NCBI RefSeq assembly: GCF_003634105.1
Contig: NZ_RBIQ01000007.1
Coordinates: forward strand, 1,488,001 to 1,552,000
DNA: 64,000 nucleotides
Source: Maribacter vaceletii
GTDB taxonomy: Bacteria; Bacteroidota; Bacteroidia; Flavobacteriales; Flavobacteriaceae
Direction of reading: 5' to 3'
The number at the start of each line of letters is the position of its first letter. Within the stretch, counting starts at the first letter, position 1. The position numbers and the translations under genes were made by a program. Shown here piece after piece: positions 12,066 through 24,719 of this stretch. The notes beneath the pieces are model-generated. The model ran no database searches, was not told the DNA's origin, and saw nothing but the letters and a program-made list of their open reading frames with translations.

Positions 12066-13343
12066 TTACACTTTATTCATTTTCTCGCGAATTTCATTTA
12101 AACATAGGTTTCCTAAACTACCATCATGCGTGTGTTTAATATCTTTTTTAGGAGAAAAAGTACCTTCATTTATTTCCATTCCCATTTTCTTATAGGCATC
12201 TCTAAAAGGTATGCCACTAAGAACTAACTCGTTTAAAGTATCTACACTAAAAAGATAATCGTACTTAGGATCTTCTAAAATGCCAGTATTAACTTTTACT
12301 TCTTTTAGACTAAAAGTTAAGATATCTAAACAGGATTTTAATTCTTGTATCGCAGGGACTAGTACTTCTTTAACTAATTGTAAATCTCTATGATAACCGC
12401 TAGGAAGGTTATTTGTTATAAGAATTAATTGATTAGGTACTGCTTGTATTTTATTACACTTACCACGTACCAATTCAAACACATCTGGATTTTTCTTATG
12501 AGGCATTATACTACTTCCTGTGGTAAGTTCATCTGGGAAGGTAATAAAATCGAAATTTTGGCTCATATATAAACAAATATCCATTGCCATTTTAGAGAGG
12601 GTAGCGGCAATACTACTCATTCCAAAAGCAGTAGCCTTTTCTACTTTTCCTCTTCCCATTTGTGCAGCTACTACATTGTACTTTTGTGTAGCAAAGCCCA
12701 TTTCTTTAGTAGTAAAGCTTCTATCTATTGGGAAAGAACTACCGTAACCAGCAGCACTCCCAAGTGGATTTTGGTCAGCAATTTTATAGGCAGCATCAAT
12801 AAAATATAAATCATCTACTAAACTTTCTGCATAGGCAGAAAACCAAAGCCCAAAAGAAGATGGCATTGCTATTTGTAAATGTGTATATCCTGGTAATAAA
12901 ACAGTTTTATACTTGTCTGCAAGATTAATTAAAAGACTAAAAAGTGACTTTGTTTGCTCCTTAATTTCTTCTAATTCATTTTTTAAATACAAATGCATAG
13001 CTACCAAAACTTGGTCGTTTCTGGAACGTGCAGTGTGTATTTTTTTACCGGTATCGCCGAGCTTTTCAATTAGCAAAAACTCAATCTTAGAGTGCATATC
13101 TTCAAAAGAATCTTCAATAGTAAAAGAGCCTTTTTCTATAGATTTAGCAATAAGGTCTAATTCTTTTACAAGGGCATCGGTCTCTTTTTGGGTAAGTAAG
13201 CCTATTTTTCCTAGCATTTTAGCATGTGCAGTAGAGGCGATTACATCATATTTAGCAAGCTGCAAATCTAGTTCTCTATCATTACCTACTGTAAAGTGGT
13301 CTATTTTTTTATCGGTACTAAATCCTTTATCCCAGAGTTTCAT
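12066..13343 (-). CDS. argH: Argininosuccinate lyase
   Basis: ArgH cleaves argininosuccinate to arginine and fumarate, the last step of the pathway. The 425-residue protein has the fumarase/aspartase superfamily signature GSSIMPHKKNPDVFE, the HTARSRNDQV segment that binds substrate, and LPGYTHLQIAMPSSFG. It is somewhat shorter than the enterobacterial enzyme of about 457 residues, with the difference at the C-terminus. It is the final gene of the operon, separated from argE by a 76-bp gap containing a long hairpin, and is followed by a strong terminator. Confidence 0.95.
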   Translation of the reverse strand: MKLWDKGFSTDKKIDHFTVGNDRELDLQLAKYDVIASTAHAKMLGKIGLLTQKETDALVKELDLIAKSIEKGSFTIEDSFEDMHSKIEFLLIEKLGDTGKKIHTARSRNDQVLVAMHLYLKNELEEIKEQTKSLFSLLINLADKYKTVLLPGYTHLQIAMPSSFGLWFSAYAESLVDDLYFIDAAYKIADQNPLGSAAGYGSSFPIDRSFTTKEMGFATQKYNVVAAQMGRGKVEKATAFGMSSIAATLSKMAMDICLYMSQNFDFITFPDELTTGSSIMPHKKNPDVFELVRGKCNKIQAVPNQLILITNNLPSGYHRDLQLVKEVLVPAIQELKSCLDILTFSLKEVKVNTGILEDPKYDYLFSVDTLNELVLSGIPFRDAYKKMGMEINEGTFSPKKDIKHTHDGSLGNLCLNEIREKMNKV

Positions 13344-13360: not shown

Positions 13361-13424
13361 AATTAGTACTAAGTACAAAGTTAGTGATTAAGAAAAACTT
13401 AATACTTTGTACTTAGTACTTAAT
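13361..13424. repeat. Long inverted repeat between argE and argH
   Basis: AGTACTAAGTACAAAGT (13365-13381) and its exact complement (13404-13420) form a 17-bp stem. An inner stem ATTAAG/CTTAAT (13387-13392 with 13398-13403) closes an AAAAA loop, and AATT pairs extend the base past a one-base bulge. No U-run follows on the minus strand, so it is not an ordinary terminator. The left half resembles the element at 20226-20256 (25 of 31 bases). Confidence 0.7.
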
Positions 13425-14490
13425 TCTGTTTTAAAAATCCTTCTAATATTTTAATGTATAAATCTATACCTTCTTCAATTTCATTTACATAAATAAATTC
13501 ATCGGCAGAATGTGAACGGGTGCTATCTCCTGGCCCCAATTTTACAGATTGACAAGTTAATGCTGCTTGGTCGGATAGGGTTGGGGAGCCATAGGTACTC
13601 CTTCCTAATGCTACACCACTTTTTACCAATGCATGGTCTTTATCTATTTTGGATGAGTTTAGTTTAAGTCCACGTTCTTGAATTTCACAAGGGGCTTCAG
13701 CTTTTAATAAATCTGCAATTTCTTTATTGGTGTAGCTGTCGTTTACACGAACATCTATTACAAGTTCTACTTGTGCTGGAACTACGTTATGCTGACTACC
13801 GGCATTTATTTGTGTTACCGTAAGTTTTACATCTCCAAGAGCTTCAGAAGTTTTTTCAAATTTATAATTCTTAAACCAATCTAAAACCTCAATAGTATTA
13901 TAAATAGAATTATTATCATTAGGGTGCGCTGCATGTGATGGTGTTCCTTTTACAACAGCATCAAAAACTACCAACCCTTTTTCTGCGATTGCTAATTGCA
14001 TTAGTGTTGGCTCGCCAACAATAGCAACATCAATTTTTGGTAGACTAGGTAGTAAGCCGCGTAGGCTATTTACTCCAGCATTTTCCTCTTCAGCAGAAGC
14101 CACCATTAAAATATTATGGCTGAGGTTTTCTTTGGCATAAAAAGTAACAAATGTAGCGAGTAGTGACACCAAACATCCACCAGCATCATTACTACCCAAA
14201 CCGTATAATTTACCATCTATTACTTCTGGTAAAAAAGGATCTCTAGTGTACGCTTTATTGGGCTTTACGGTGTCATGATGTGAGTTTAATAATAAGGTTG
14301 GTTTGCTATCATCCCAATATTTGTTTTTTGCGTAAACATTATTATTTTCTCTAGTAAAAGGAATAGAAAAACTAGTGAACCATGCCTCAATTGCATCGGC
14401 AGTTTTATCTTCTTCTTTAGAAAAAGATTCTATACTTATAAGCTCTTTTAATAAAGAAATGGCTTTTTCTGTTAGTGCTTTCTGTTCCAT
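13420..14490 (-). CDS. argE: M20 deacylase of arginine synthesis (N-acylcitrulline/acylornithine deacylase)
   Basis: The 356-residue M20-family metallopeptidase carries the two-zinc motifs NSHHDT, GSNDAGGC and ASAEEENAG, with a late SHSADEF histidine. In pathways where carbamoylation happens on the acylated amine, as the neighbouring ArgF' implies, the natural substrate is N-acetyl- or N-succinyl-citrulline rather than acylornithine. It sits 1 bp after argB in the operon. The exact acyl group cannot be read from the sequence. Confidence 0.88.
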   Translation of the reverse strand: MEQKALTEKAISLLKELISIESFSKEEDKTADAIEAWFTSFSIPFTRENNNVYAKNKYWDDSKPTLLLNSHHDTVKPNKAYTRDPFLPEVIDGKLYGLGSNDAGGCLVSLLATFVTFYAKENLSHNILMVASAEEENAGVNSLRGLLPSLPKIDVAIVGEPTLMQLAIAEKGLVVFDAVVKGTPSHAAHPNDNNSIYNTIEVLDWFKNYKFEKTSEALGDVKLTVTQINAGSQHNVVPAQVELVIDVRVNDSYTNKEIADLLKAEAPCEIQERGLKLNSSKIDKDHALVKSGVALGRSTYGSPTLSDQAALTCQSVKLGPGDSTRSHSADEFIYVNEIEEGIDLYIKILEGFLKQN

Positions 14491-14491
14491 C

Positions 14492-15271
14492 TTATAATGT
14501 TATTGTTGTAAATAAGCTAGCATTTGGTTGTATCATTTCAATATTTCCTAAACAGACTTTACCAACGTTATTTTGTAATGCATGAAAGCAATTTTCTAGT
14601 TTAGGAAGCATGCCATCTGCAATTATTTTTTGTTCTAAAAGCTCTTTGTATTTGTTAGAATCTATATGTTTTACCACAGAATCTTCATCTTCAATACGCA
14701 TTAAAACTCCTTTTTTTTCAAAGGAATAGTATAAAGTAGTATTATATAATTTGCTCATCCCAATTGCTACTTCAGATGCTATAGTATCTGCGTTTGTATT
14801 TAAGATGTTTCCTTCGCCATCATGAGATAAGGCGCAAAAAACAGGAGTTACACCAGAGGTAATAAGTGTGTTTAAAAAATCTGCATTTATACCATCTATA
14901 TCGCCAACAAAACCAAAATCTACCTCTTTTACAGGCCTTTTATGAGCTTGTATAACATTACCATCGGCACCACTTAAACCTATAGCATTAGTTCCATTTG
15001 CTTGTAAGCTTGCAACTATGTTTTTATTAGTTAACCCGCCATAAACCATGGTAATTATTTCTAAGCTTTTAGCATCTGTAACTCTACGACCATTTACCAT
15101 TTGGGATTCTATTCCTAGTTTGGATGCTAATTGCGTAGCTAGTTTACCCCCACCATGTACTAGTATTTTTGCTCCTTTTAGTTGAGAAAAAAAGGTTAAA
15201 AATTTAGCAAGTTCTGTTTTGTTTTCAATTACATTACCTCCTATTTTTACGATAGATAGTTTCTCTTTCAT
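14492..15271 (-). CDS. argB: N-acetyl(succinyl)glutamate kinase
   Basis: This 259-residue amino-acid kinase phosphorylates the gamma-carboxyl of N-acylglutamate. It has KIGGNVIEN at the N-terminus, LVHGGGKLATQLASKLG for substrate and phosphate binding, an NTNADTIASEVA segment and DGMLPKLENC. The stop overlaps the next unit tightly, with argF' ending on the same base, which implies translational coupling. By pathway context the substrate may be N-succinylglutamate, as in Bacteroides. Confidence 0.92.
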   Translation of the reverse strand: MKEKLSIVKIGGNVIENKTELAKFLTFFSQLKGAKILVHGGGKLATQLASKLGIESQMVNGRRVTDAKSLEIITMVYGGLTNKNIVASLQANGTNAIGLSGADGNVIQAHKRPVKEVDFGFVGDIDGINADFLNTLITSGVTPVFCALSHDGEGNILNTNADTIASEVAIGMSKLYNTTLYYSFEKKGVLMRIEDEDSVVKHIDSNKYKELLEQKIIADGMLPKLENCFHALQNNVGKVCLGNIEMIQPNASLFTTITL

Positions 15272-16209
15272 TATAGGTTTTCTAATATTTTTTTAAGTAC
15301 TATTTGTGCAGCGTACGTTCTATTATTTGCTTGTTGTATAACTATAGATTGTTCACTGTCTAAAACAGCATCGTTAACTACGACATTTCTACGAACAGGT
15401 AAACAGTGCATAAATTTTGCTTTGCCTAATTTTTCTTTAGTCATCATCCAAGATTCATCTTGATTTAAAACTTTTCCATAATTGGCATAACTACTCCAGT
15501 TTTTTACCGAAACAAAATCGGCATTTTCTAAAGCTTTTTCTTGGTTATTTTCTATGGTTACACCATTTGTAATTTTAGGGTCTAACTCGTATCCTTTTGG
15601 GTGTGTTAAAACAAATTCTGCATCTTGTAACTGCATCATTTCTATAAAAGAATTAGCTACTGCATGTGGTAATGCTTTAGGGTGCGGTGCCCAGGATAAA
15701 ACTACTTTGGGTCTTTTCTTTGTTTTATTTTCGTCTATGGTAATAGCATCTGCTAAGCCCTGTAAAGGGTGCCCAACAGAGCTTTCCATATTTAAAATGG
15801 GAACAGAAGCATATTCTTTAAAGCCATTTAAAACCACTTCGGCTTTGTCTTTTTCTTTGTCTGTTAGTCCTGCAAATGCTCTAATGCCAATAATATCGCA
15901 GTATTGAGAAACAACCTGAGCAGCTTCTTTTATATGTTCTGATGTGCCTTGGTTCATGATAGTACCATCTTCATATTCTAATGCCCAACCTTCGTTACCA
16001 AAGTTCATAACCATTACTTCTAAACCTAAATTTGTTGCAGCTTTTTGCGTGCTTAAACGGGTACGTAAAGAGTTATTAAAGAAAAGAAGACCAATAGTCT
16101 TATTTGCACCAAGAGCAACATTGGCTTTTGGGTTTTTTTTAAGGTTTTTAGCTTCTTCTACTAGTTTTGGAAGAGAATCAATATCGTTTATAGAAAGATA
16201 GTTTTTCAT
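15271..16209 (-). CDS. argF': N-acetyl/N-succinyl-ornithine carbamoyltransferase
   Basis: The 312-residue transcarbamylase has NNSLRTRLST for carbamoyl phosphate, HPLQGLADA, and HCLPVRRN, a hallmark of the acylornithine-using branch rather than classical OTCase. As I recall the literature, the residue at about position 90-92 sets acyl choice: Glu favours acetyl, while Pro (native in B. fragilis) or Ser favours succinyl. Here it is Ser90 (GTSEHIKEAA), which suggests succinylornithine. That reading relies on remembered mutational work and needs an alignment. Confidence 0.9.
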   Translation of the reverse strand: MKNYLSINDIDSLPKLVEEAKNLKKNPKANVALGANKTIGLLFFNNSLRTRLSTQKAATNLGLEVMVMNFGNEGWALEYEDGTIMNQGTSEHIKEAAQVVSQYCDIIGIRAFAGLTDKEKDKAEVVLNGFKEYASVPILNMESSVGHPLQGLADAITIDENKTKKRPKVVLSWAPHPKALPHAVANSFIEMMQLQDAEFVLTHPKGYELDPKITNGVTIENNQEKALENADFVSVKNWSSYANYGKVLNQDESWMMTKEKLGKAKFMHCLPVRRNVVVNDAVLDSEQSIVIQQANNRTYAAQIVLKKILENL

Positions 16210-16234: not shown

Positions 16235-17002
16235 TTATTCTTGGGTTACTTTTGTAAAATTACTTTTATTATTAATGGCGTCTAGAATAAAATTTTCTTT
16301 TAATCCGTTTACAATCCATGTTTCAATATTCGCTTTTTGAGCTATGGTTGCAGCCTCAATTTTAGATTGCATTCCGCCAGTACCATGCGATGATTTTTCA
16401 TCACTAATTTCATTCTTTAATATAGTTAAATCACTAACCGCAGTAATAGTTTTTGGTAGGTTATTATTAATAGATTCCTTTGTGTAAATACCGTCTGTAT
16501 TGGTTGCAATTAGTAACAAATCGGCTTGTAATAATGCTGCCGTAAGTGCTGCTAACTTATCATTATCTCCAAATTTTATTTCATCGGTAGAAACGGTATC
16601 ATTCTCATTAATAATTGGAATAAAGTTGTTAGATACTAATACATCAATAGTGTTTTTAATATTGATTTGCGATTCTTTTTTTTCAAAATCTGAATAAGAT
16701 AATAAACATTGCGATGTAAAAAGGCCTAGTTCTCTAAAGTTCTCTTGAAAAATTCGCATAAGGTGGGGTTGTCCAATAGATGCTAAAGCTTGTTTAACAT
16801 TAATTTCTTCTCCGTTATGCTCTAGTTTTACGAACTGTTTAGCTGCAGCAATAGCTCCGGAACTAACAATTATAAATTCGTAGTCTTCTTTTAAACTAGC
16901 AACTTGCCTTCCAATATCCTCGATTTTACCTCTAGAAATATGGTCGGTTTCTTTAGTTAGGGTATTAGAACCAATTTTAAGTAAGATTCTTTTTTTCTTC
17001 AT
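16235..17002 (-). CDS. proB: Glutamate 5-kinase, short form without PUA domain
   Basis: ProB makes gamma-glutamyl phosphate, the first step to proline. The 255-residue protein is just the amino-acid kinase domain: LLKIGSNTLT, IVSSGAIAAAKQF, NENDTVSTDEIKFGDNDKLAA, and GTGGMQSKIEAA. The C-terminal PUA domain of the E. coli enzyme (about 367 residues) is absent. It lies between argF' and proA in the mixed operon. Confidence 0.92.
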   Translation of the reverse strand: MKKKRILLKIGSNTLTKETDHISRGKIEDIGRQVASLKEDYEFIIVSSGAIAAAKQFVKLEHNGEEINVKQALASIGQPHLMRIFQENFRELGLFTSQCLLSYSDFEKKESQINIKNTIDVLVSNNFIPIINENDTVSTDEIKFGDNDKLAALTAALLQADLLLIATNTDGIYTKESINNNLPKTITAVSDLTILKNEISDEKSSHGTGGMQSKIEAATIAQKANIETWIVNGLKENFILDAINNKSNFTKVTQE

Positions 17003-17042: not shown

Positions 17043-18239
17043 TTATCTTATTTGCCCATTACCTAAAATGTACCATTTATTGGTTACTAAATGCTGTAAT
17101 CCTATTGGTCCACGTTGGTGTAATTTATCGGTACTTATCGCTAGTTCTCCTCCTAAGCCAAATTGCCCACCATCTGTAAATCTTGTAGATGCATTGTGGT
17201 ACACAGCAGCAGTATCTACCAACTGCATAAAGGTATTAGCGGTATCTTTATTTGCGGTTATAATTGCTGCGGAATGACCGCCTCCGTATTTGTTAATTTT
17301 AGTAATTGCATCTTCTAAAGAAGGGACTTGACCAAAAACAATTTTATAATCTAAGAACTCCTGATACCAAATATTTTCATCTTTAATGGTTGATGTTCCT
17401 TCTAGTGATGAGAAAGCTTCGTCTGTAATAATTTCAACGTTACTTTTCTTAAGTTCAGCCATTAAGTGTTGCACAAATTGTTGTTTTCTTGGTAAATTTG
17501 CTGCTATAAGTACTTTGTCTAATGCATTACATGCCGATATTTTTGTTGTTTTTGCATTTATGATAATATCTAGTGCCATTTGCAAATCTGCCTCAGTATC
17601 TATATAAACAAAATTGTTGCCACGCCCACTAATAATAACAGGGCAAGTGGCATATTGTTTTACAAAAGCAATTAGTCTTTCCCCTCCTCTTGGTACAATT
17701 AGATCTAGTTTTTGGGTCGGATTTTCTAAAAATTCTTGTGTTTGTTTTCTATCAAATTGTAAATAAGTAACCCAGTCTTTGGCGCAATTATGTACATCTA
17801 AAGCTTTGTGCCATAAATTTACTAACACCAAATTACTGTTTACGGATTCTTTACCACCTTTTAAAAGTATTTTGTTTCCAGATTTAAATGCAATACCTGC
17901 AGCTTCAATAGTAACATCTGGTCTAGATTCGTAAATAATTAAAATAGTCCCAAAAGGAGCTGTTTTATTACTTACTTGAATACCATTGTCGTGCGTGAAG
18001 GCAAAACGTTCAACCCCTAAAGGGTCTGGCTCGTTAGCAAGTTGCTTTAAGGATAATACCATGCCGTCTATTTTATCCTGGTCTACCTTTAGACGATCAC
18101 GCATAGAAATATCATCGCCGTTATAGGATTCCAAATCTGTGATATTAGCTTTTAATAATTCCGATTTATGCTCTAGAATTAGCTCTGCCATAGTTAGCAG
18201 GACAGCATTACGTTCTTGTATGTTTAATAGAATACTCAC
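17043..18239 (-). CDS. proA: Gamma-glutamyl phosphate reductase
   Basis: ProA reduces gamma-glutamyl phosphate to glutamate semialdehyde. The 398-residue ALDH-like protein shows APFGTILIIYESRPDVT, LKGGKESVNSN, the PRGGERLIAFV segment, and the catalytic-cysteine region KTTKISACNALDK. C-terminal STRFTDGGQFGLGGE and HQRGPIGL are family hallmarks. It shares its first base with the end of argD, so the two are translationally coupled. Confidence 0.95.
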   Translation of the reverse strand: MSILLNIQERNAVLLTMAELILEHKSELLKANITDLESYNGDDISMRDRLKVDQDKIDGMVLSLKQLANEPDPLGVERFAFTHDNGIQVSNKTAPFGTILIIYESRPDVTIEAAGIAFKSGNKILLKGGKESVNSNLVLVNLWHKALDVHNCAKDWVTYLQFDRKQTQEFLENPTQKLDLIVPRGGERLIAFVKQYATCPVIISGRGNNFVYIDTEADLQMALDIIINAKTTKISACNALDKVLIAANLPRKQQFVQHLMAELKKSNVEIITDEAFSSLEGTSTIKDENIWYQEFLDYKIVFGQVPSLEDAITKINKYGGGHSAAIITANKDTANTFMQLVDTAAVYHNASTRFTDGGQFGLGGELAISTDKLHQRGPIGLQHLVTNKWYILGNGQIR

Positions 18240-19384
18240 TATAATTCTTCTTTAAGTGCATTAAAAAATATATCTATATGTTCTTTGGTACAATTTAGGG
18301 CTGGTAAAAAACGTAGTAATTTTTTATTCATAGCACCTCCTGTGAAAATATGCTGGTCATAAATCATTTTTTTGCGTAGTTCTCCTACTTCAAAATCGAA
18401 TTCGATTCCGAGCATTAAACCTTTCCCTTTAATACTTTTTATTTGCGGAATTTCTTTAGCTTTTTCATTAAAATAAGCACCAATTTTAGCTGCGTTTTCT
18501 ATTAAATTTTCATTCTCTAAAACTTCTAAAACAGCTGTTGTAGCAGCGCAAGCCAAATGGTTGCCACCAAAAGTAGTTCCTAACATACCATAAGAAGCTT
18601 CTATGCTTTCATGAATAAGTACTCCACCAACAGGAAAACCATTTCCCATTCCTTTAGCAATACTAATAATATCTGGTTGTATACTTTGGCTACGCTCAGC
18701 ATCCCAATGGTGCTGAAAACCAAAGAATTTACCACTTCTTCCAAAGCCACATTGTACTTCGTCAGCAATAAGAAGAGCACCATTTTCTTTAGCTAACGTA
18801 GCTATTTTTTGAAAAAATTCTGAAGTAGGTTCTTCTAAACCACCAACACCTTGAATAGCTTCTAAAATAACAGCACAAACATCTCCTTTTTCTATTTCGG
18901 CTGTAAAAGCAGTAATATCATTAAAAGGTAAAATAGTTACTTTTTGTTGCTTGTTAAGAGGTGCGTTTATTTTCTCATTATCTGTTGCTGCAACGGCAGC
19001 AGAAGTTCTTCCGTGAAAGCCGTTTTTAAAGGCAATTACACGAGATTTTCCTGTTTTAAAAGAGGCCATTTTTAGAGCATTTTCATTTGCTTCGGCTCCT
19101 GAATTACAGAGGAATAAATTATAATCTTCACAACCAGATAACTTTCCTAATTTAGTAGCAAGTTTTACCTGTAAAGGGTTTTGTACTGCGTTACTATAAA
19201 AGCCAATTTTATCTAATTGGGATTTTATTTTTTCTACATAATGAGGGTGCCCATGACCAATAGAAATTACAGCGTGCCCACCATAAAAATCTAAATATTC
19301 TTGCCCTTTATCATCTGTAACGACCATTCCTTTTGCAGAAATAGGAGTTACATTGTAAAGTGGGTAAACATCAAATAATTTCAT
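18239..19384 (-). CDS. argD: N-acetyl(succinyl)ornithine aminotransferase
   Basis: This 381-residue class III aminotransferase converts N-acylglutamate semialdehyde to N-acylornithine with glutamate. Visible motifs are GHGHPHYVEKI, CNSGAEANENALKMA, GFHGRT, ADEVQCGFGRSGKFFGFQH and the PLP lysine in DIISIAKGMGNGFPVGG. It lies between proC and proA, so it is presumably needed by the arginine branch while encoded among proline genes. Confidence 0.93.
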   Translation of the reverse strand: MKLFDVYPLYNVTPISAKGMVVTDDKGQEYLDFYGGHAVISIGHGHPHYVEKIKSQLDKIGFYSNAVQNPLQVKLATKLGKLSGCEDYNLFLCNSGAEANENALKMASFKTGKSRVIAFKNGFHGRTSAAVAATDNEKINAPLNKQQKVTILPFNDITAFTAEIEKGDVCAVILEAIQGVGGLEEPTSEFFQKIATLAKENGALLIADEVQCGFGRSGKFFGFQHHWDAERSQSIQPDIISIAKGMGNGFPVGGVLIHESIEASYGMLGTTFGGNHLACAATTAVLEVLENENLIENAAKIGAYFNEKAKEIPQIKSIKGKGLMLGIEFDFEVGELRKKMIYDQHIFTGGAMNKKLLRFLPALNCTKEHIDIFFNALKEEL

Positions 19385-19424: not shown

Positions 19425-20219
19425 TTACCCTTTTTTAATTTGATTTATTTTTTCGAATGATGCTACAATTCCTTGAATTAAGGAAGAACTTAGGCCTTGG
19501 TGTTCCATTTCATTTAATCCTTCAATAGTGCATCCTCCTGGAGTGGTTACACGGTCTATTTCTTCTTCTGGATGATTGCCAGATGCTAATAATAAACCAG
19601 CAGCACCATCACAAGTATGTTTTGCTAGTTCTTGGGCTTCTTTAGCTTCAAAACCTAATTGTATAGCTCCTTGGGTAGTAGCACGTATTAAACGCATCCA
19701 AAAAGCAATTCCGCTTGCACATATTACGGTAGCTGCTTGCATTTGCTCTTCCGGAATAACCATAGAAGCTCCTACCTTATCAAAAATAGATTGTGCAATA
19801 GCAATTTTGCTTTTGCCAATAGCATTACTACACATGCAAGTCATAGATTTACCTACCGCAATAGCAGTGTTTGGCATGCTTCTAATAATATTTTTATCAC
19901 TTCCAACAATAGATTCTATACGCGAAATGCTAAATCCAGTAATTACAGAAATTATTATATGGTTTGCAGTCAATAAATCTTTTACATCTTCTAGTATAGC
20001 TTCTAAATGACGTGGCTGAATAGCAAATATTAAGACGTCAGAATTTTTAACAGCTTCTCTGTTATCACTTGTTAAAACTACTTTATCATAACTAGCGTAT
20101 TCTTTAATGTCATCTAGATTTCTTTTGGTAAGGTACATAGAGCTAGCTCCGTTACTATCTAATATTCCTTTACCAATGGCTAATCCTAAATTCCCAGTTC
20201 CTATGATTGCTACTTTCAT
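19425..20219 (-). CDS. proC: Pyrroline-5-carboxylate reductase
   Basis: ProC reduces pyrroline-5-carboxylate to proline. The 264-residue protein opens with the nucleotide-binding IIGTGNLGLAIGKG and has FAIQPRHLEAIL, IRSMPNTAIAVGKSMTCM, and the C-terminal signature HPEEEIDRVTTPGGCTIEGLNEME. The upstream spacer to argC holds a short repeat element. With proA and proB here, the operon encodes the whole glutamate-to-proline route. Confidence 0.95.
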   Translation of the reverse strand: MKVAIIGTGNLGLAIGKGILDSNGASSMYLTKRNLDDIKEYASYDKVVLTSDNREAVKNSDVLIFAIQPRHLEAILEDVKDLLTANHIIISVITGFSISRIESIVGSDKNIIRSMPNTAIAVGKSMTCMCSNAIGKSKIAIAQSIFDKVGASMVIPEEQMQAATVICASGIAFWMRLIRATTQGAIQLGFEAKEAQELAKHTCDGAAGLLLASGNHPEEEIDRVTTPGGCTIEGLNEMEHQGLSSSLIQGIVASFEKINQIKKG

Positions 20220-20313: not shown

Positions 20314-21288
20314 TTAGAATACTCCTGCTTTTAGATTAAGTCCTTCACTTTCATTAAACCCAAACATTAAATTCATGTTCTGTACTGCTTGCCCAGATGC
20401 ACCTTTTAAAAGGTTATCTATGGCAGAAGTAATTAATAAAGTATCACCATGTTTATGTAAATGAATATGGCACTGATTGGTGTTTACAACTTGCTTTAAA
20501 TTAATAGCTTCATCAGAAATTTGTGTAAAAAGTGCATCTTTATAAAAATCACTAAAAATAGCTTTGGCACTTTCTAAATCTCCATCATATTTAGTATAAG
20601 CAGTTGCTAAAATTCCTCTTGTAAAGTTTCCTCTATTAGGAAGAAAAAACAACTCTCCAACATTTTCTTGCAAGCTTTCTAAGCTTTCACCAATTTCTCC
20701 TAAATGTTGGTGTGTAAACGGTTTGTACCAAGATACATTATTATTTCTCCAGCTAAAATGGGATGTCGCAGATGGGCTAACTCCTGCACCAGTACTGCCA
20801 GTAACTGCATTTATATGTACATCTTGTTGTAATTTGTTTTCTTTTGCTAATGGTAATAATGCCAATTGAATAGCAGTAGCAAAACATCCTGGGTTAGCAA
20901 TGTTCTTTGCTTTCTGAATTTCCGATTTTCTTAATTCTGGAAGCCCATAAACAAACGTTCTTTCGTTTAAAGTTTCATCCGCATTTAACCTAAAATCATT
21001 ACTTAAATCTATAATCTTGGTGTCTTTAGAAAATGCATGTGCATTTAAAAACTTGGTAGAATTACCATGTCCTAAACAAAGGAAAACCAAATCTACATTT
21101 AGATTTACATCACCAGTAAAAGCAAGGTCAGTAACACCCAATAAATCGCCATGAGCACTGGTGATTTTTTTACCAGCTCTTGTGGTACTATACACAAAAT
21201 CTATTTCTGCTTGCGGATGATTTAATAAAATTCGGATGAGCTCTCCACCCGTATAACCAGAGCCACCAATAATTCCTACTTTAATCAT
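20314..21288 (-). CDS. argC: N-acetyl-gamma-glutamyl-phosphate reductase
   Basis: ArgC reduces N-acylglutamyl phosphate to the semialdehyde. The 324-residue protein begins VGIIGGSGYTGGELIRIL (NADP binding), has LSNDFRLN, the active-site cysteine in ANPGCFATAIQLALLPL, and GSTGAGVSPSATSHFSWRNNN. It overlaps argG by 8 bp, which indicates translational coupling. Confidence 0.95.
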   Translation of the reverse strand: MIKVGIIGGSGYTGGELIRILLNHPQAEIDFVYSTTRAGKKITSAHGDLLGVTDLAFTGDVNLNVDLVFLCLGHGNSTKFLNAHAFSKDTKIIDLSNDFRLNADETLNERTFVYGLPELRKSEIQKAKNIANPGCFATAIQLALLPLAKENKLQQDVHINAVTGSTGAGVSPSATSHFSWRNNNVSWYKPFTHQHLGEIGESLESLQENVGELFFLPNRGNFTRGILATAYTKYDGDLESAKAIFSDFYKDALFTQISDEAINLKQVVNTNQCHIHLHKHGDTLLITSAIDNLLKGASGQAVQNMNLMFGFNESEGLNLKAGVF

Positions 21289-22471
21289 TTTGTTGATTTA
21301 CGTGGTTATATATTTTACCAGAATTTGAAAGTATTTTTATAAATCCTTTAGCATCATCTGCTGTCCATCCTTTATTAACTTCACCGTAACTACCAAAGGC
21401 ATCGGTCATTAAATCGTGTTTAGAAGAAATTCCGTTTAATCTAAACTGGAAAGGGTATAAGCTTAAGAAAACATCCCCAGAAACATTCTTTTGTGTATCT
21501 GTAAGGAAGGCTTCAATATTTCGCATTACTTCGTCTAAATAATTTCCTTCATGTAATAACATTCCGTAGAAATTACCCTGTTGTTCTTTTTGGTATTGTT
21601 GCCATTTGCTAAGTGTGTGTTTTTCTAGTAAATGGTGTGCTTTTATTATTATTAATGCAGCGGCAGCTTCAAAACCAACTCTACCTTTTGTACCAATAAT
21701 AGTATCACCAACATGAATATCTCTGCCAATAGCGTATTTAGAAGCCATTGCTTCTAGTTTTTCAATATTTGCAACTGGGTTATTTTTTTCTCCATCAATA
21801 GCAACTAATTCTCCTTTTTCAAAAGTAAGTTTTACATCTGTAGGTTCTTTCTCTTGTAATTGGCTAGGATAAGCACTATCTGGTAGTGCATTTTTAGAAG
21901 TTAAGGTTTCTTCACCACCAACAGAAGTTCCCCAAAGCCCTCTATTTATAGAATATTTTGCTTTTTCCCAAGAGTAGTCAACACCGTTTTCTTTTAGGTA
22001 AGCAATTTCAGCTTCTCTAGATAACTTGTTATCTCTAATTGGAGTAATAATTTCAATCTCTGGAGCAATGATTTGAAAAATCATATCAAACCTTACTTGG
22101 TCATTTCCAGCGCCAGTACTACCGTGGGCAATATATTCTGCACCAATTTTTTTAGCATAATTTACAATCTCAATAGCTTGTACTATTCTCTCTGCACTTA
22201 CAGAAAGTGGGTATGTATTGTTTTTTAATACATTGCCAAAAATTAAATACTTAACCACTTTGTCATAGAAAGTCTGTACGGCATCTAAAGAAGTATAACT
22301 AGTAGCTCCTAAATCTATAGCTTTAGAATTAATAGTAGCTATTTCTTCTTTAGAAAAACCACCAGTATTTACACTTACAGCATGTACCTCAAATCCTTTG
22401 TCTTTTGATAAATATTTTGCACAGTAGGATGTATCTAAACCTCCACTATATGCTAAAACTAATTTTTTCAT
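21281..22471 (-). CDS. argG: Argininosuccinate synthase
   Basis: ArgG condenses citrulline and aspartate using ATP. The 396-residue protein has the PP-loop LAYSGGLDTSYC at the N-terminus, HGSTGAGNDQVRFD for aspartate/citrulline binding, and WGTSVGGEETLT. It is the second gene of the operon, after the GNAT gene. Confidence 0.95.
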   Translation of the reverse strand: MKKLVLAYSGGLDTSYCAKYLSKDKGFEVHAVSVNTGGFSKEEIATINSKAIDLGATSYTSLDAVQTFYDKVVKYLIFGNVLKNNTYPLSVSAERIVQAIEIVNYAKKIGAEYIAHGSTGAGNDQVRFDMIFQIIAPEIEIITPIRDNKLSREAEIAYLKENGVDYSWEKAKYSINRGLWGTSVGGEETLTSKNALPDSAYPSQLQEKEPTDVKLTFEKGELVAIDGEKNNPVANIEKLEAMASKYAIGRDIHVGDTIIGTKGRVGFEAAAALIIIKAHHLLEKHTLSKWQQYQKEQQGNFYGMLLHEGNYLDEVMRNIEAFLTDTQKNVSGDVFLSLYPFQFRLNGISSKHDLMTDAFGSYGEVNKGWTADDAKGFIKILSNSGKIYNHVNQQND

Positions 22472-22505: not shown

Positions 22506-23135
22506 CTATTTTTGTTTCTTTTTTAGGAATAATTGTTCCTTAATCTTTTTTAACCTTTGAAAAGCCTTGCTATTTACTTTTTCTGGTTCTTGTATTTTTT
22601 CTTTTTTTGATGTTGCTTTTGGGTCATGTAACATTCCGGTACAAAGACACATTTTTCTTTCGGTACGAGTTAAGATGTCAAAATTCTTACAGGTTTGGCA
22701 CCCTTTCCAAAATTCTGGGTCATCGGTAAGCTCAGAAAAAGTAACAGGTTTATATCCTAGCTCATAATTAATTTTCATTACCGCTAATCCGGTAGTAATA
22801 CCAAATATTTTAGCATCAGGAAATTTTTCTTTAGAGAGGTCAAAAACCGCTTTTTTAATTTTTTTTGCTAGCCCTTGATTTCTATAGTCAGGGTGAACAA
22901 TAAGTCCAGAATTGGCAACAAATTTTTCATGCCCCCAAACTTCTATATAACAGAAACCTGCAAATTTATCGCCATCTAAAGCAATTACAGCATTACCATT
23001 CTCCAATTTTTTTTGAATATATTCTGGAGTACGTTTTGCAATACCGGTACCTCTTACTTTTGCAGATTCCCCAATGGTATCGCAAATAAGTTGAGCGTAT
23101 TTAAAATGTGATGTATTAGCAATTACAATTTTCAT
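22506..23135 (-). CDS. GNAT acetyltransferase, candidate N-acylglutamate synthase
   Basis: The 209-residue protein has a GNAT fold (about 1-135) with the acyl-CoA pyrophosphate loop at HPDYRNQGLAKKI (81-93). A compact cysteine cluster follows (C146, C149, C163, C165), resembling a small zinc site, and the tail is Lys-rich. It is the first structural gene of the Arg/Pro operon, and no argA or argJ homologue is in the operon. It may therefore supply N-acyl (perhaps N-succinyl) glutamate. I recall similar proteins being assigned this role in Bacteroidetes, but that is unchecked here. Confidence 0.75.
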   Translation of the reverse strand: MKIVIANTSHFKYAQLICDTIGESAKVRGTGIAKRTPEYIQKKLENGNAVIALDGDKFAGFCYIEVWGHEKFVANSGLIVHPDYRNQGLAKKIKKAVFDLSKEKFPDAKIFGITTGLAVMKINYELGYKPVTFSELTDDPEFWKGCQTCKNFDILTRTERKMCLCTGMLHDPKATSKKEKIQEPEKVNSKAFQRLKKIKEQLFLKKKQK

Positions 23136-23185
23136 TGAATGCTTGTTTTATTAAAAATAATGAATAACTTATTGTTTTCGAGAAG

Positions 23186-23207
23186 GGAAATGGACTCACC
23201 TATTTCC
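23186..23207 (-). promoter_or_regulatory. Leader hairpin downstream of the Arg/Pro leader peptide
   Basis: On the minus strand GGAAAT (23207-23202) pairs with ATTTCC (23191-23186) around a 10-base loop. Loop bases GGTGAGT (23200-23194) can instead pair with ACTCGCC (23242-23236), which overlaps the Thr and first Arg codons of the leader peptide, with one G-U pair. The two pairings compete, as in attenuators. No strong U-run follows, so the mechanism (termination or translation) is open. Confidence 0.45.
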
Positions 23208-23224
23208 ATAAATATTACACACCC

Positions 23225-23308
23225 CTACGGGCGGCGGCGAGTGGGAACAAAAGAACATGCTGAAGCAGTTGCCCAGATGTTTACATATGTATGTGCTTTT
23301 GTTTTCAT
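23225..23308 (-). CDS. Arginine/proline leader peptide (27 residues)
   Basis: An ATG lies about 8 bases downstream of a well-matched -7 box and opens a 27-codon frame that stops 89 bases before the GNAT gene. The peptide ends Val-Pro-Thr-Arg-Arg-Arg-Pro-stop. The three arginines are consecutive CGC codons, which look rare here because AGA and CGT dominate the neighbouring genes. The operon makes arginine and proline, the two residues packed at the peptide's end. This matches the logic of leader-peptide attenuation: ribosomes stall when charged tRNA-Arg or tRNA-Pro is scarce. The coding is seen directly; its regulatory role is inferred. Confidence 0.75.
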   Translation of the reverse strand: MKTKAHTYVNIWATASACSFVPTRRRP

Positions 23309-23315
23309 TAGACAC

Positions 23316-23344
23316 CAAATGTACAAATTATACTGAAACAACAA
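23316..23344 (-). promoter_or_regulatory. Bacteroidota-type promoter of the Arg/Pro operon
   Basis: On the minus strand TTG (23344-23342) is followed after 18 bases by TACATTTG (23323-23316), an exact match to TAnnTTTG. Transcription should begin only a few bases before the leader-peptide ATG at 23308. It lies directly behind the end of the upstream glycosyltransferase gene, with no terminator between. Confidence 0.7.
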
Positions 23345-23354
23345 CACTAACTGT

Positions 23355-24719
23355 TTAATTTTTACAAAAAAGGCGCTTTTTGTTACGTTGTGTTACTAAT
23401 TCATAAATGAAAACTCCAAATACTGTAATATATTCAATACTAAGAAGGCTTAAATTTTCTTTAAAATCTGGCTGACCATAAGCCCAATAACTTAAAATTA
23501 CTGCAGCAGACCAGATTATGGCATATTTATAATTAGTGAATAAGCTAACAAGAACCAAAAAAATTATATACCAAGGATGCACTGTTGGAGAAATAAAATA
23601 ATAAATAGTTAGCGTAAATAACATGGAGGCTATAAGTGTATTTAAATCTTTGTTTTTTTTTAAAAAAGTAAAAAGGAGTACCGTAATTATGGTAACTATA
23701 GGGGTTATTTTTCCGTAAGATTTTATTAGTTCCCAAGGCTTAGCATCTAAAAATGTTATAGCAATATATTTTATAGTATTATAAATACTTGCGTTAAACT
23801 CAAAATTAGAGAACCAAAGCCCTACAGTTTCGGAGTAATTAGTAATAAATTCAGAAGAATAAAAAGGCATTAAAAGAGTAGCAGTGGTTATGCCAACTAT
23901 GCCGTAAAACTGGACACTTTTTTTAAATTTAAAATGGGTTAAAAACAATGGTAAAAATAAAAGAGGAACCAATTTCACCATAATAGAAAGGGCATAGACT
24001 ATAGCACTAGATTTCCATTTGTCTATAGATAATAAATATAAAGACCAGATAAAGAAGAAGAGCATAACACCTTCAAAATGTAAATTTCCAGTAAGTTCTA
24101 TTAGTACTAATGGGTTTAAAAAATACCAGAATATTAAATGCGGAGAACGATTAAGGTTTTTTAAAAGTTTACGTCCAAAATAAACAATACCAATATCTGC
24201 AAGAACAATAGTAATTCGCATTACAATTACAGAGCCAAGTATTGTTTTACCACCCAAAAAAGCTGTAATTGCAAATATTAGCTGGTTTAAAGGCGGGTAA
24301 TTACTATAAAATTTTGGACTTAAATCTCCCATGCCTTTATATAACTCATGAGCATTAGCAATTATTAAGTCTTCTTGTTCGATAAGTACTTTAGGTAAAT
24401 ATAAATAAGGGTTTTTAAAATTGTTTATTAGTTCTCCGTCCCAAATAAAACGATAAAAATCTTGAGATAAGTTTGGTTCAGCTATAAGAAAAACGAGCCT
24501 AAAAAGGATTCCTGCACCTAATAAGAATTTAAAATTCCATTTTTGAAATTGTATAATTTTATAGCAGAGGAAAAATAATGCAATACTGAGGGTAAGAAGT
24601 TTTATAAAGTCTTCTCTATGTAAATTATAAGCAAAGGATGCATATAAAGTAATGCTTGCTAGTACAAGTAGGATAGAATATTTATGTAGCTTCCAATGGG
24701 AAGTGAGTTGCCTCCACAT
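23355..24719 (-). CDS. Polytopic GT-C type glycosyltransferase (mannosyltransferase-like)
   Basis: The 454-residue protein has about 10-12 hydrophobic membrane segments and a conserved early periplasmic-loop motif, SQDFYRFIWDGELINN, with acidic residues expected in polyprenol-phosphate-sugar-using GT-C enzymes. It resembles the GT87/MptB-like mannosyltransferases. Donor and acceptor cannot be told. Two GT2-type enzymes are encoded a little upstream on the same strand, so a shared role in surface glycan or glycolipid synthesis is plausible. Confidence 0.75.
   Translation of the reverse strand: MWRQLTSHWKLHKYSILLVLASITLYASFAYNLHREDFIKLLTLSIALFFLCYKIIQFQKWNFKFLLGAGILFRLVFLIAEPNLSQDFYRFIWDGELINNFKNPYLYLPKVLIEQEDLIIANAHELYKGMGDLSPKFYSNYPPLNQLIFAITAFLGGKTILGSVIVMRITIVLADIGIVYFGRKLLKNLNRSPHLIFWYFLNPLVLIELTGNLHFEGVMLFFFIWSLYLLSIDKWKSSAIVYALSIMVKLVPLLFLPLFLTHFKFKKSVQFYGIVGITTATLLMPFYSSEFITNYSETVGLWFSNFEFNASIYNTIKYIAITFLDAKPWELIKSYGKITPIVTIITVLLFTFLKKNKDLNTLIASMLFTLTIYYFISPTVHPWYIIFLVLVSLFTNYKYAIIWSAAVILSYWAYGQPDFKENLSLLSIEYITVFGVFIYELVTQRNKKRLFCKN

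Follow-up and report, generated by a model that had tools for sequence, protein, structure and literature searches.

The question raised by this locus is whether a short reading frame ahead of the arginine/proline operon of Maribacter vaceletii serves as a leader peptide that senses the amino acids made by the operon. We examined the frame in the window, by which we mean the whole stretch of 64,000 nucleotides that was analysed, and in the corresponding loci of relatives.

The frame, its promoter box and the operon

The sequence-only reading of this DNA had described a 27-codon frame ending in Pro-Thr-Arg-Arg-Arg-Pro, placed directly after an exact TAnnTTTG promoter. The frame is present exactly as claimed, with ACT CGC CGC CGC CCG TAG as its final codons, and the box, TACATTTG, was confirmed as an exact match ending 7 nt upstream of the ATG (Table 1). 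TAnnTTTG is the Bacteroidota −7 consensus. Since the box lies only 7 nt from the ATG, the mRNA would start at the frame or just ahead of it, and the first leader ORF is probably leaderless or nearly so. In the aligned loci of clade A, TAC(A/T)TTT(G/A) is present in 16 of 16, at 7 nt from the ATG in 15 of them and at 8 nt in L012. In the wider family, an automatic rule located TAnnTTT(G/A) at most 20 nt from the start in 90 of 132 loci, most often at 4 nt (39 loci) or 7 nt (31 loci). The other 42, our own locus included, were missed, partly owing to the loose rule for the upstream ORF that is described below. A box 4-9 nt upstream of the ATG was found for 102 of 707 upstream ATGs in total, a count that includes the leaders themselves.

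Table 1. Positions, in the window, of the leader features and operon genes
Feature	Position	Strand	Basis
Promoter box TACATTTG, fits TAnnTTTG	23316..23323	-	exact match; box kept in aligned clade A loci
Leader ORF (candidate), 27 codons, MKTKAHTYVNIWATASACSFVPTRRRP-stop	23225..23308	-	translated from sequence; conserved in relatives
Putative sensor codons CGC CGC CGC (Arg) and CCG (Pro)	23228..23239	-	sequence; relatives
Hairpin H1, CGCCC-GTAG-GGGTG, spanning last Arg codon, Pro codon and stop	23220..23233	-	predicted
U-rich spacer between H1 and H2	23208..23219	-	sequence
Hairpin H2, GGAAAT-A-GG-TGAGT-CC-ATTTCC, loop UGNGU, covarying stem	23186..23207	-	predicted; covariation
GNAT-family acetyltransferase, first gene of the operon	22506..23135	-	homology
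argG	21281..22471	-	
argC	20314..21288	-	
proC	19425..20219	-	
argD-type aminotransferase	18239..19384	-	
proA	17043..18239	-	
proB	16235..17002	-	
argF' (N-acylornithine carbamoyltransferase)	15271..16209	-	
argB	14492..15271	-	
ArgE/DapE-family deacylase	13420..14490	-	
argH-size lyase (PF00206)	12066..13343	-	

The arginine run of the frame stands out from its surroundings. The sequence CGCCGCCGC occurs once in the whole 64 kb, both strands counted, and no Arg-Arg-Arg run is present in the 53 window ORFs of at least 150 codons. In these same ORFs CGC accounts for 31 of 569 Arg codons (5.4%) and AGA for 301, which bears out the remark that CGC is uncommon nearby. The assignment of the operon to arginine and proline also holds, with both arg and pro genes lying downstream (Table 1).

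In three genomes (G002, G442 and G698, loci L305, L306 and L307, respectively) the first gene is a different ORF of 194-200 aa, and the leader and its hairpins still precede argG. This ORF has a distant GNAT match (25-26% identity over part of it) in G002 and G698; for the first ORF of G442 no GNAT match was detectable, though its start looks alike by eye. Because the element formed by the leader and its hairpins stays with the arg genes in these genomes, it goes with the operon rather than with the GNAT gene.

Conservation of the element and of its arginine codons

Of 149 relatives, 83 have a GNAT orthologue. With a first rule, based on CGN-CCN, an Arg-Pro frame was detected in 58 of 70 upstream regions, and in 56 of the 60 that belong to Flavobacteriaceae. 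Among the 12 misses of this rule, L018, L040 and L063 have, by eye, an Arg-rich leader with an altered ending, and the fourth of the four misses within the family, L064, is a genome that has the operon and lacks the element. When the frame was sought by its position beside the loop motif of H2, it was found in 132 of 140 family loci (these 60 and 80 more), all 132 having at least two Arg in the last 16 codons; the conservation of the frame and of its Arg/Pro run, which the sequence-only reading had proposed to look for in the 5' regions of relatives, was therefore observed. The H2-loop rule failed in L149, L160, L162, L023, L055, L059, L063 and L064. From these, L149 and L160 match the model described next, L023 and L055 sit in alignment A1, L059 and L063 have an Arg frame, L162 retains only the upstream ORF (ORF1, see below) and L064 has nothing.

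Model R1 and alignment A1 hold 53 of 58 rows; the near duplicates L006 and L042 were left out, as were L059, L065 and L067. R1 matched 79 of 80 held-out family loci with an E value of 4.6e-5 or better (the miss was L162), although closer relatives are over-represented among these loci because they were picked from the best-scoring listed part of 268 GNAT matches, mostly one per new genus, with some from genera already in the model set. The model matched 255 of 397 family genomes, its own included, and 160 of 237 sampled genera. In our own genome there is a single match (E 1e-17), the next one having an E of 1.8. An overlap made by eye gave 248 genomes with element and GNAT gene, seven with the element only (four of them weak) and 20 with the GNAT gene only, that is, 20 of the 268 GNAT-bearing genomes are without a model match.

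The search of the class for the element outside the family returned 6 of 295 genomes, namely our own, three of the same family and two others. These two (L308, of only 879 nt, and L309) were taken as chance matches, given that the operon proteins were unmatched in their regions. In Rfam, the window had no match at gathering score, and positions 23100-23420 had none up to an E of 5. Arg-/Pro-rich frames upstream of the gene, accompanied by hairpins that look different by eye, were observed in L065 and L067, which belong to another family (f2), and in L058 and L060-L062, of a third family (f15), where AGG/AGA codons are used too, for example in ERPVLTIGIGRFSPLDRFRREPNRQ.

The arginine codons of the leader are both abundant and of one kind. 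Near the end of the first 56 leaders, Arg makes up 227 of 923 residues, compared with 2.6% in flanking genes, and 217 of these 227 codons are CGN, nearly all CGC or CGU, compared with 47% in flanking genes; in the 132 leaders CGN accounts for 535 of 568 Arg codons (94%), against 67-76% in matched controls. The leader frames were chosen by their CGN count, which inflates the Arg and CGN figures, and for this reason the same selection was applied to the controls. At least three CGN codons near the end were found in 124 of 132 real leaders, in 55 of 627 frames from the reverse strand, in 13 of 633 from elsewhere on the same strand and in 34 of 609 from shuffled leader regions. Arg reaches 27% at the leader end against 6-10% in matched controls, and Pro 16% against 3-5% (132 leaders). 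Outside H1 lies the Arg codon at the second position before Pro; it has CG at bases 1 and 2 in 52 of 56 leaders, while its base 3 varies (CGT 33, CGC 17, CGA 2). One tRNA-Arg reads both CGU and CGC. A fixed CG with a variable third base is as selection acting on Arg codons would predict, and the N-terminal part of the peptide varies freely among relatives. Small frames are common, so that a chance short frame without function might be considered; however, the matches in 160 of the 237 sampled genera, and an Arg content and codon bias above the matched controls, make this extremely improbable.

The ending of the peptide bears on a different explanation, in which a nascent peptide ending in Arg-Arg-Pro-stop would, at high levels of free arginine, arrest the ribosome on the stop codon of the leader, and codon identity would matter less. 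Such an arrest is known from TnaC, which invariably ends in Arg-Pro-stop, and from the fungal arginine attenuator peptide, and the leaders resemble TnaC in that 113 of 132 end in Arg-Pro-stop and 107 in Arg-Arg-Pro-stop. Nevertheless, the invariance seen in TnaC is not found here: 19 of the 132 leaders have another ending (for example RRTFVRA, RRPLGV or RRT), as does L063 (RRRLLA), and the Arg codons and hairpins stay. Arrest by the peptide is also difficult to reconcile with a freely varying N-terminal part and with a strong preference for CGN, which would not be expected if only the residues mattered, and we consider it very unlikely.

Many relatives carry a further Arg-rich frame upstream, ORF1, typically MKNLKNKIRC..PGLPVRNRRR, in series with the leader frame, which is then ORF2. 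A loose rule finds ORF1 in 64 of 132 loci and a strict rule, which demands a start codon and a promoter box, in 36 of 132; the loose rule gives false picks, and what it took for ORF1 at our own locus was the end of the adjacent gene. Judging from these predicted frames, a second Arg-rich leader ORF is present upstream in a quarter or more of relatives. In two-ORF loci, ORF1 lies directly after the promoter box. In the 64 loose cases, which form a mixed set, ORF2 has an ATG, GTG or TTG 30 or 31 codons from its stop 39 times and 9 codons from it 20 times, and a search for terminators between ORF1 and ORF2 gave just three weak candidates. ORF1, with its Arg-rich end, may act as a first checkpoint in many relatives.

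The two hairpins and the output step

The order leader ORF, H1, U-rich spacer and H2 is common to the loci read. In A1, 91.5% of the H1 cells are paired, no two-sided change is seen and the outermost pair is open in 14 of 53 sequences; in the held-out alignment H1 is predicted as well, with double changes from C-G to A-U in 6 of 79 sequences. By eye, L018, L040 and L063 have other hairpins at this place. For H2, two-sided changes occur in 7 of the 8 pairs predicted in the first alignment fold, and the covariation score of H1 and H2 together (0.251) is above all 500 shuffles (0.127). Because H2 stems with one more bulge base are wrongly placed in the held-out alignment (A4, made with MAFFT), with the result that only the inner H2 pairs are predicted from it, we scored H2 locus by locus. 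The stem forms 6 of 6 pairs in 112 of 131 loci, against a shuffled mean of 34.5 and a maximum of 52 (2000 shuffles), and it does so with 57 distinct stem sequence pairs. The loop reads U-G-N-G-U, and GG/CC changes to GA/UC in some loci. Taken as a whole, our own leader folds no better than its shuffles (z −0.65).

Other structures and roles were considered and not adopted. A pseudoknot between H1 and H2, in which CGCC would join GGTG in the loop of H2, is a candidate for the competing pairing that a trp/his-type attenuator has between antiterminator and terminator. It can pair in 97.6% of A1 cells, but its columns hardly vary and it is impossible by eye in L018 and L063. The 7-bp pairing ACTCGCC/GGTGAGT that appears in the fold of our own locus was discarded since the sisters L041 and L042 differ at a paired position and have an identical loop. 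No T tract follows H2 in clade A, which argues against H2 as a terminator. Control of the translation start of the first gene by H2 is also unlikely: across 131 loci, H2 lies 42-164 nt from the mapped start (median 49), and in the three genomes whose first gene differs it lies 101-210 nt away. Such a variable distance speaks against direct masking of the start.

As a separate observation, the H2 loop at 23192-23201, AGGUGAGUCC, resembles the complement of the 3' end of the 16S rRNA, AGGUGAUCC, with one extra base. This could reflect an anti-Shine-Dalgarno contact or be a coincidence; the resemblance is absent in L048, L055 and L063. Passages of PMC6847099 describe Bacteroidota as a phylum without Shine-Dalgarno sequences.

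Within the element, conservation is highest in the loop and stem of H2, and the pairing of H1 fixes the terminal Pro codon. Both facts would suit an RNA-only switch or a protein-binding site, such as an arginine or protein aptamer formed by H1 and H2, with the ORF as a by-product of GC-rich sequence. We regard this as quite unlikely, given that the Arg codon outside H1 keeps its CG in 52 of 56 leaders with base 3 varying, that such frames are seldom obtained from shuffled leader regions (34 of 609, compared with 124 of 132 real leaders), that start codon positions cluster, and that ORF1, a separate frame away from H1 and H2, ends in Arg runs as well.

The leaders of other amino acid operons in the same genome provide a direct comparison. 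Leader peptides MRNKTTHHHFHTGCQAR, MRNNKTNIWWWSNLRKTS and MKITKTLVSIIIVPLLG lie upstream of hisG (L220, G000:C2), trpE (L223, G000:C7) and ilvD (L221, G000:C2), respectively, and each is followed by a hairpin of 11-13 pairs with a T tract (−15.6 to −19.6 kcal/mol). By this architecture the three are classic attenuators, which indicates that regulation by leader peptides is in use in this genome. Like the arg leader, each has a short ORF in which codons for the amino acid that the operon makes are clustered (HHHFH, WWW and SIII), and the his and trp ORFs also start 7 nt after a box, TAnATTT(A/G). Unlike them, the arg leader has its codons at the end of the ORF, under H1, and a conserved H2 in place of a strong terminator: H1 has about 5 bp (−7 to −9 kcal/mol) and H2 reaches −6.1 kcal/mol. 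A strong terminator between the Arg run and the first gene, taken as at least seven pairs plus five T in eight, was found in just 2 of 131 loci by a scan that covered 160 nt; of the his, trp and ilv terminators used as controls it recovered two, and that of ilvD, judging by its position, lies further out. Because strong terminators are present in the his, trp and ilv leaders and in just these two arg leaders, the arg leader is, as far as its predicted structure tells, no textbook attenuator. The proposal of leader-peptide attenuation therefore stands for the conserved ORF with Arg codons upstream of the operon, but not for a terminator of the usual strength. The two conserved hairpins and the additional upstream Arg ORF of many relatives were not part of that proposal.

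An ordinary attenuation of the trp/his type, in which H1 and the U-rich spacer would form a weak intrinsic terminator that a stalled ribosome blocks, could still be proposed. H1 is the sole terminator-like site flagged by a pattern scan of 23000-23500, T is raised after it (in 117 anchored loci the share of T is 0.61-0.80 at positions 9-12, compared with 0.35 overall), and the three other leaders of the genome are of the terminator kind. However, H1 falls far behind these three leaders in pairs and in folding energy, the most T-rich stretch does not begin at its stem, and just the two loci mentioned above reach seven pairs plus five T in eight. We therefore find this alternative rather unlikely.

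The reading that we prefer, with a probability of about 0.65, is that the arginine/proline operon has a cis-acting leader with this frame as its sensor, and that stalling of the ribosome at the Arg codons would allow expression. When charged tRNA-Arg, and perhaps tRNA-Pro, is plentiful, the ribosome would reach the stop codon and leave, H1 would form, and the transcript would end prematurely or be degraded. If charged tRNA-Arg runs short, the ribosome would stall on the Arg run and cover the 5' arm of H1, which would stay open, and the operon would be expressed. The ribosome covers roughly 12 nt downstream of its A site, so that with the A site on the first Arg codon it would extend over the Pro codon, and hence over the 5' arm of H1, and would stop short of H2. 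Passages of PMC4833913 quote the 12-nt reach for a stop codon. Being out of range of such a stalled ribosome, H2 has no evident part in a switch based on ribosome position, which counts against this model.

Since no strong terminator is conserved, the output step is a guess. For the step that turns expression off, a strong intrinsic terminator can be set aside; the likeliest candidates are termination by Rho, degradation of the RNA and a weak terminator made of H1 and the U tract, with H2 as an accessory. By analogy with Salmonella speF (PMC6386406, in the passages available), Arg codons together with Rho and an RNase can regulate an operon without an intrinsic terminator: according to these passages, the Arg codons of the leader ORF orf34 are a ribosome pause site, there is no intrinsic terminator, a hairpin lies downstream of the stop codon, and Rho and RNase G set the output. 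Consecutive Arg codons (107 of the 132 arg leaders end in Arg-Arg-Pro) and the absence of an intrinsic terminator are common to both systems. In contrast, speF encodes an ornithine decarboxylase of gamma-proteobacteria and its leader peptide (DUF2618) has its Arg codons at positions 12-13, whereas the arg leader serves a biosynthetic arg/pro operon and has its Arg run at the stop. As far as the same passages describe orf34, neither its core HIRRT nor its place before speF is found in the arg leaders, and the peptides look unlike by eye.

Proline codons and related leaders

The sequence-only reading had proposed a leader for arginine and proline together. Its arginine part is well sustained by the conserved Arg codons, and its proline part moderately. 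The proline share near the leader end (16% in 132 leaders) compares with 3.5% in window ORFs, and Pro codons are enriched beyond the terminal one; the terminal Pro codon itself is largely dictated by H1, and has been lost in several lineages. Six leader loci have no proA, proB or proC in the operon (L018, L043, L049, L059, L063 and L212). In the four of them that pass the H2-loop rule, the final 16 codons hold 0-1 Pro, whereas 128 loci with pro genes average 2.55 (p 0.0004 by a one-sided Mann-Whitney test, or 0.005 without the terminal Pro; for ORF1, p 0.023 on the mixed set given by the loose rule; kinship ignored throughout). In a matched comparison, to which L059 and L063 were added by hand, in which the relatives L200 and L048 were used twice and kinship was again ignored, the two ORFs together contain fewer Pro than those of the closest relative with pro genes in six of six cases (1/4, 1/4, 1/3, 1/2, 0/3 and 1/4). 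When ORF2 is counted by itself, five have fewer and L049 has the same number. Contrary cases are L205, L153 and L208 (a congener of L018 that has proC), each with a single Pro in total. On these counts it is plausible that the leader also reads the proline supply.

A more far-reaching version of this reading is possible, though we hold it as doubtful. The element would be a hitherto unrecognised regulator of the whole family, with sensor codons and stop inside H1 and with H2, through its UGNGU loop, as the effector that replaces the terminator by binding Rho, a nuclease or a dedicated protein; Arg and Pro would be read together, the Pro codons tracking the pro genes, and two ORFs would act in series in many genera.

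Bacteroid-trp RNA lies upstream of trp genes and is linked to a leader peptide. The available passages of PMC2864571 present it (RF01692) as a cis-regulatory RNA candidate in Bacteroidota; the arg leader differs in its operon and in having no Rfam match. For Flavobacterium psychrophilum, of the same family, passages of PMC9723704 report strong clues for leader-peptide attenuation upstream of amino acid operons; in these passages no arginine leader is named, and arginine is mentioned once, in relation to cyanophycin. The suggestion that such a leader would be new in Bacteroidota must therefore be narrowed, since leader peptides had already been proposed there; an arginine leader peptide in Bacteroidota was not found among the open papers searched, as judged by titles and the beginnings of abstracts. 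Within the literature searched, the leader-peptide kind of control is known, and the arg leader, its hairpins, the double ORF and the joint reading of Arg and Pro appear to be new.

Arginine operons are usually seen as controlled by repressors or T-boxes. If the preferred reading is true, a ribosome-based sensor of Arg, and perhaps of Pro, would be an added regulatory route for a whole bacterial family, and it would offer a natural test of leader peptides that work without a strong terminator in a phylum described in the passages of PMC6847099 as without Shine-Dalgarno sequences. The lower number of leader Pro codons in operons without pro genes would serve as a comparative handle.

Two-ORF arg leaders also have a counterpart in the mgtCBR leader of Salmonella as regards their layout. 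That leader controls a virulence/Mg2+ transport operon and senses other signals, and we know of no Arg run in it. According to passages of PMC3641672, in which the term 'proline codons' is present, it has two leader ORFs in series, as the two-ORF arg leaders do. In two-ORF loci such as L027, L029, L030 and L032, with no obvious hairpin ahead of it, a conserved stretch resembling ACGTAATTTTAATTTTTT lies immediately 5' of the start of ORF2.
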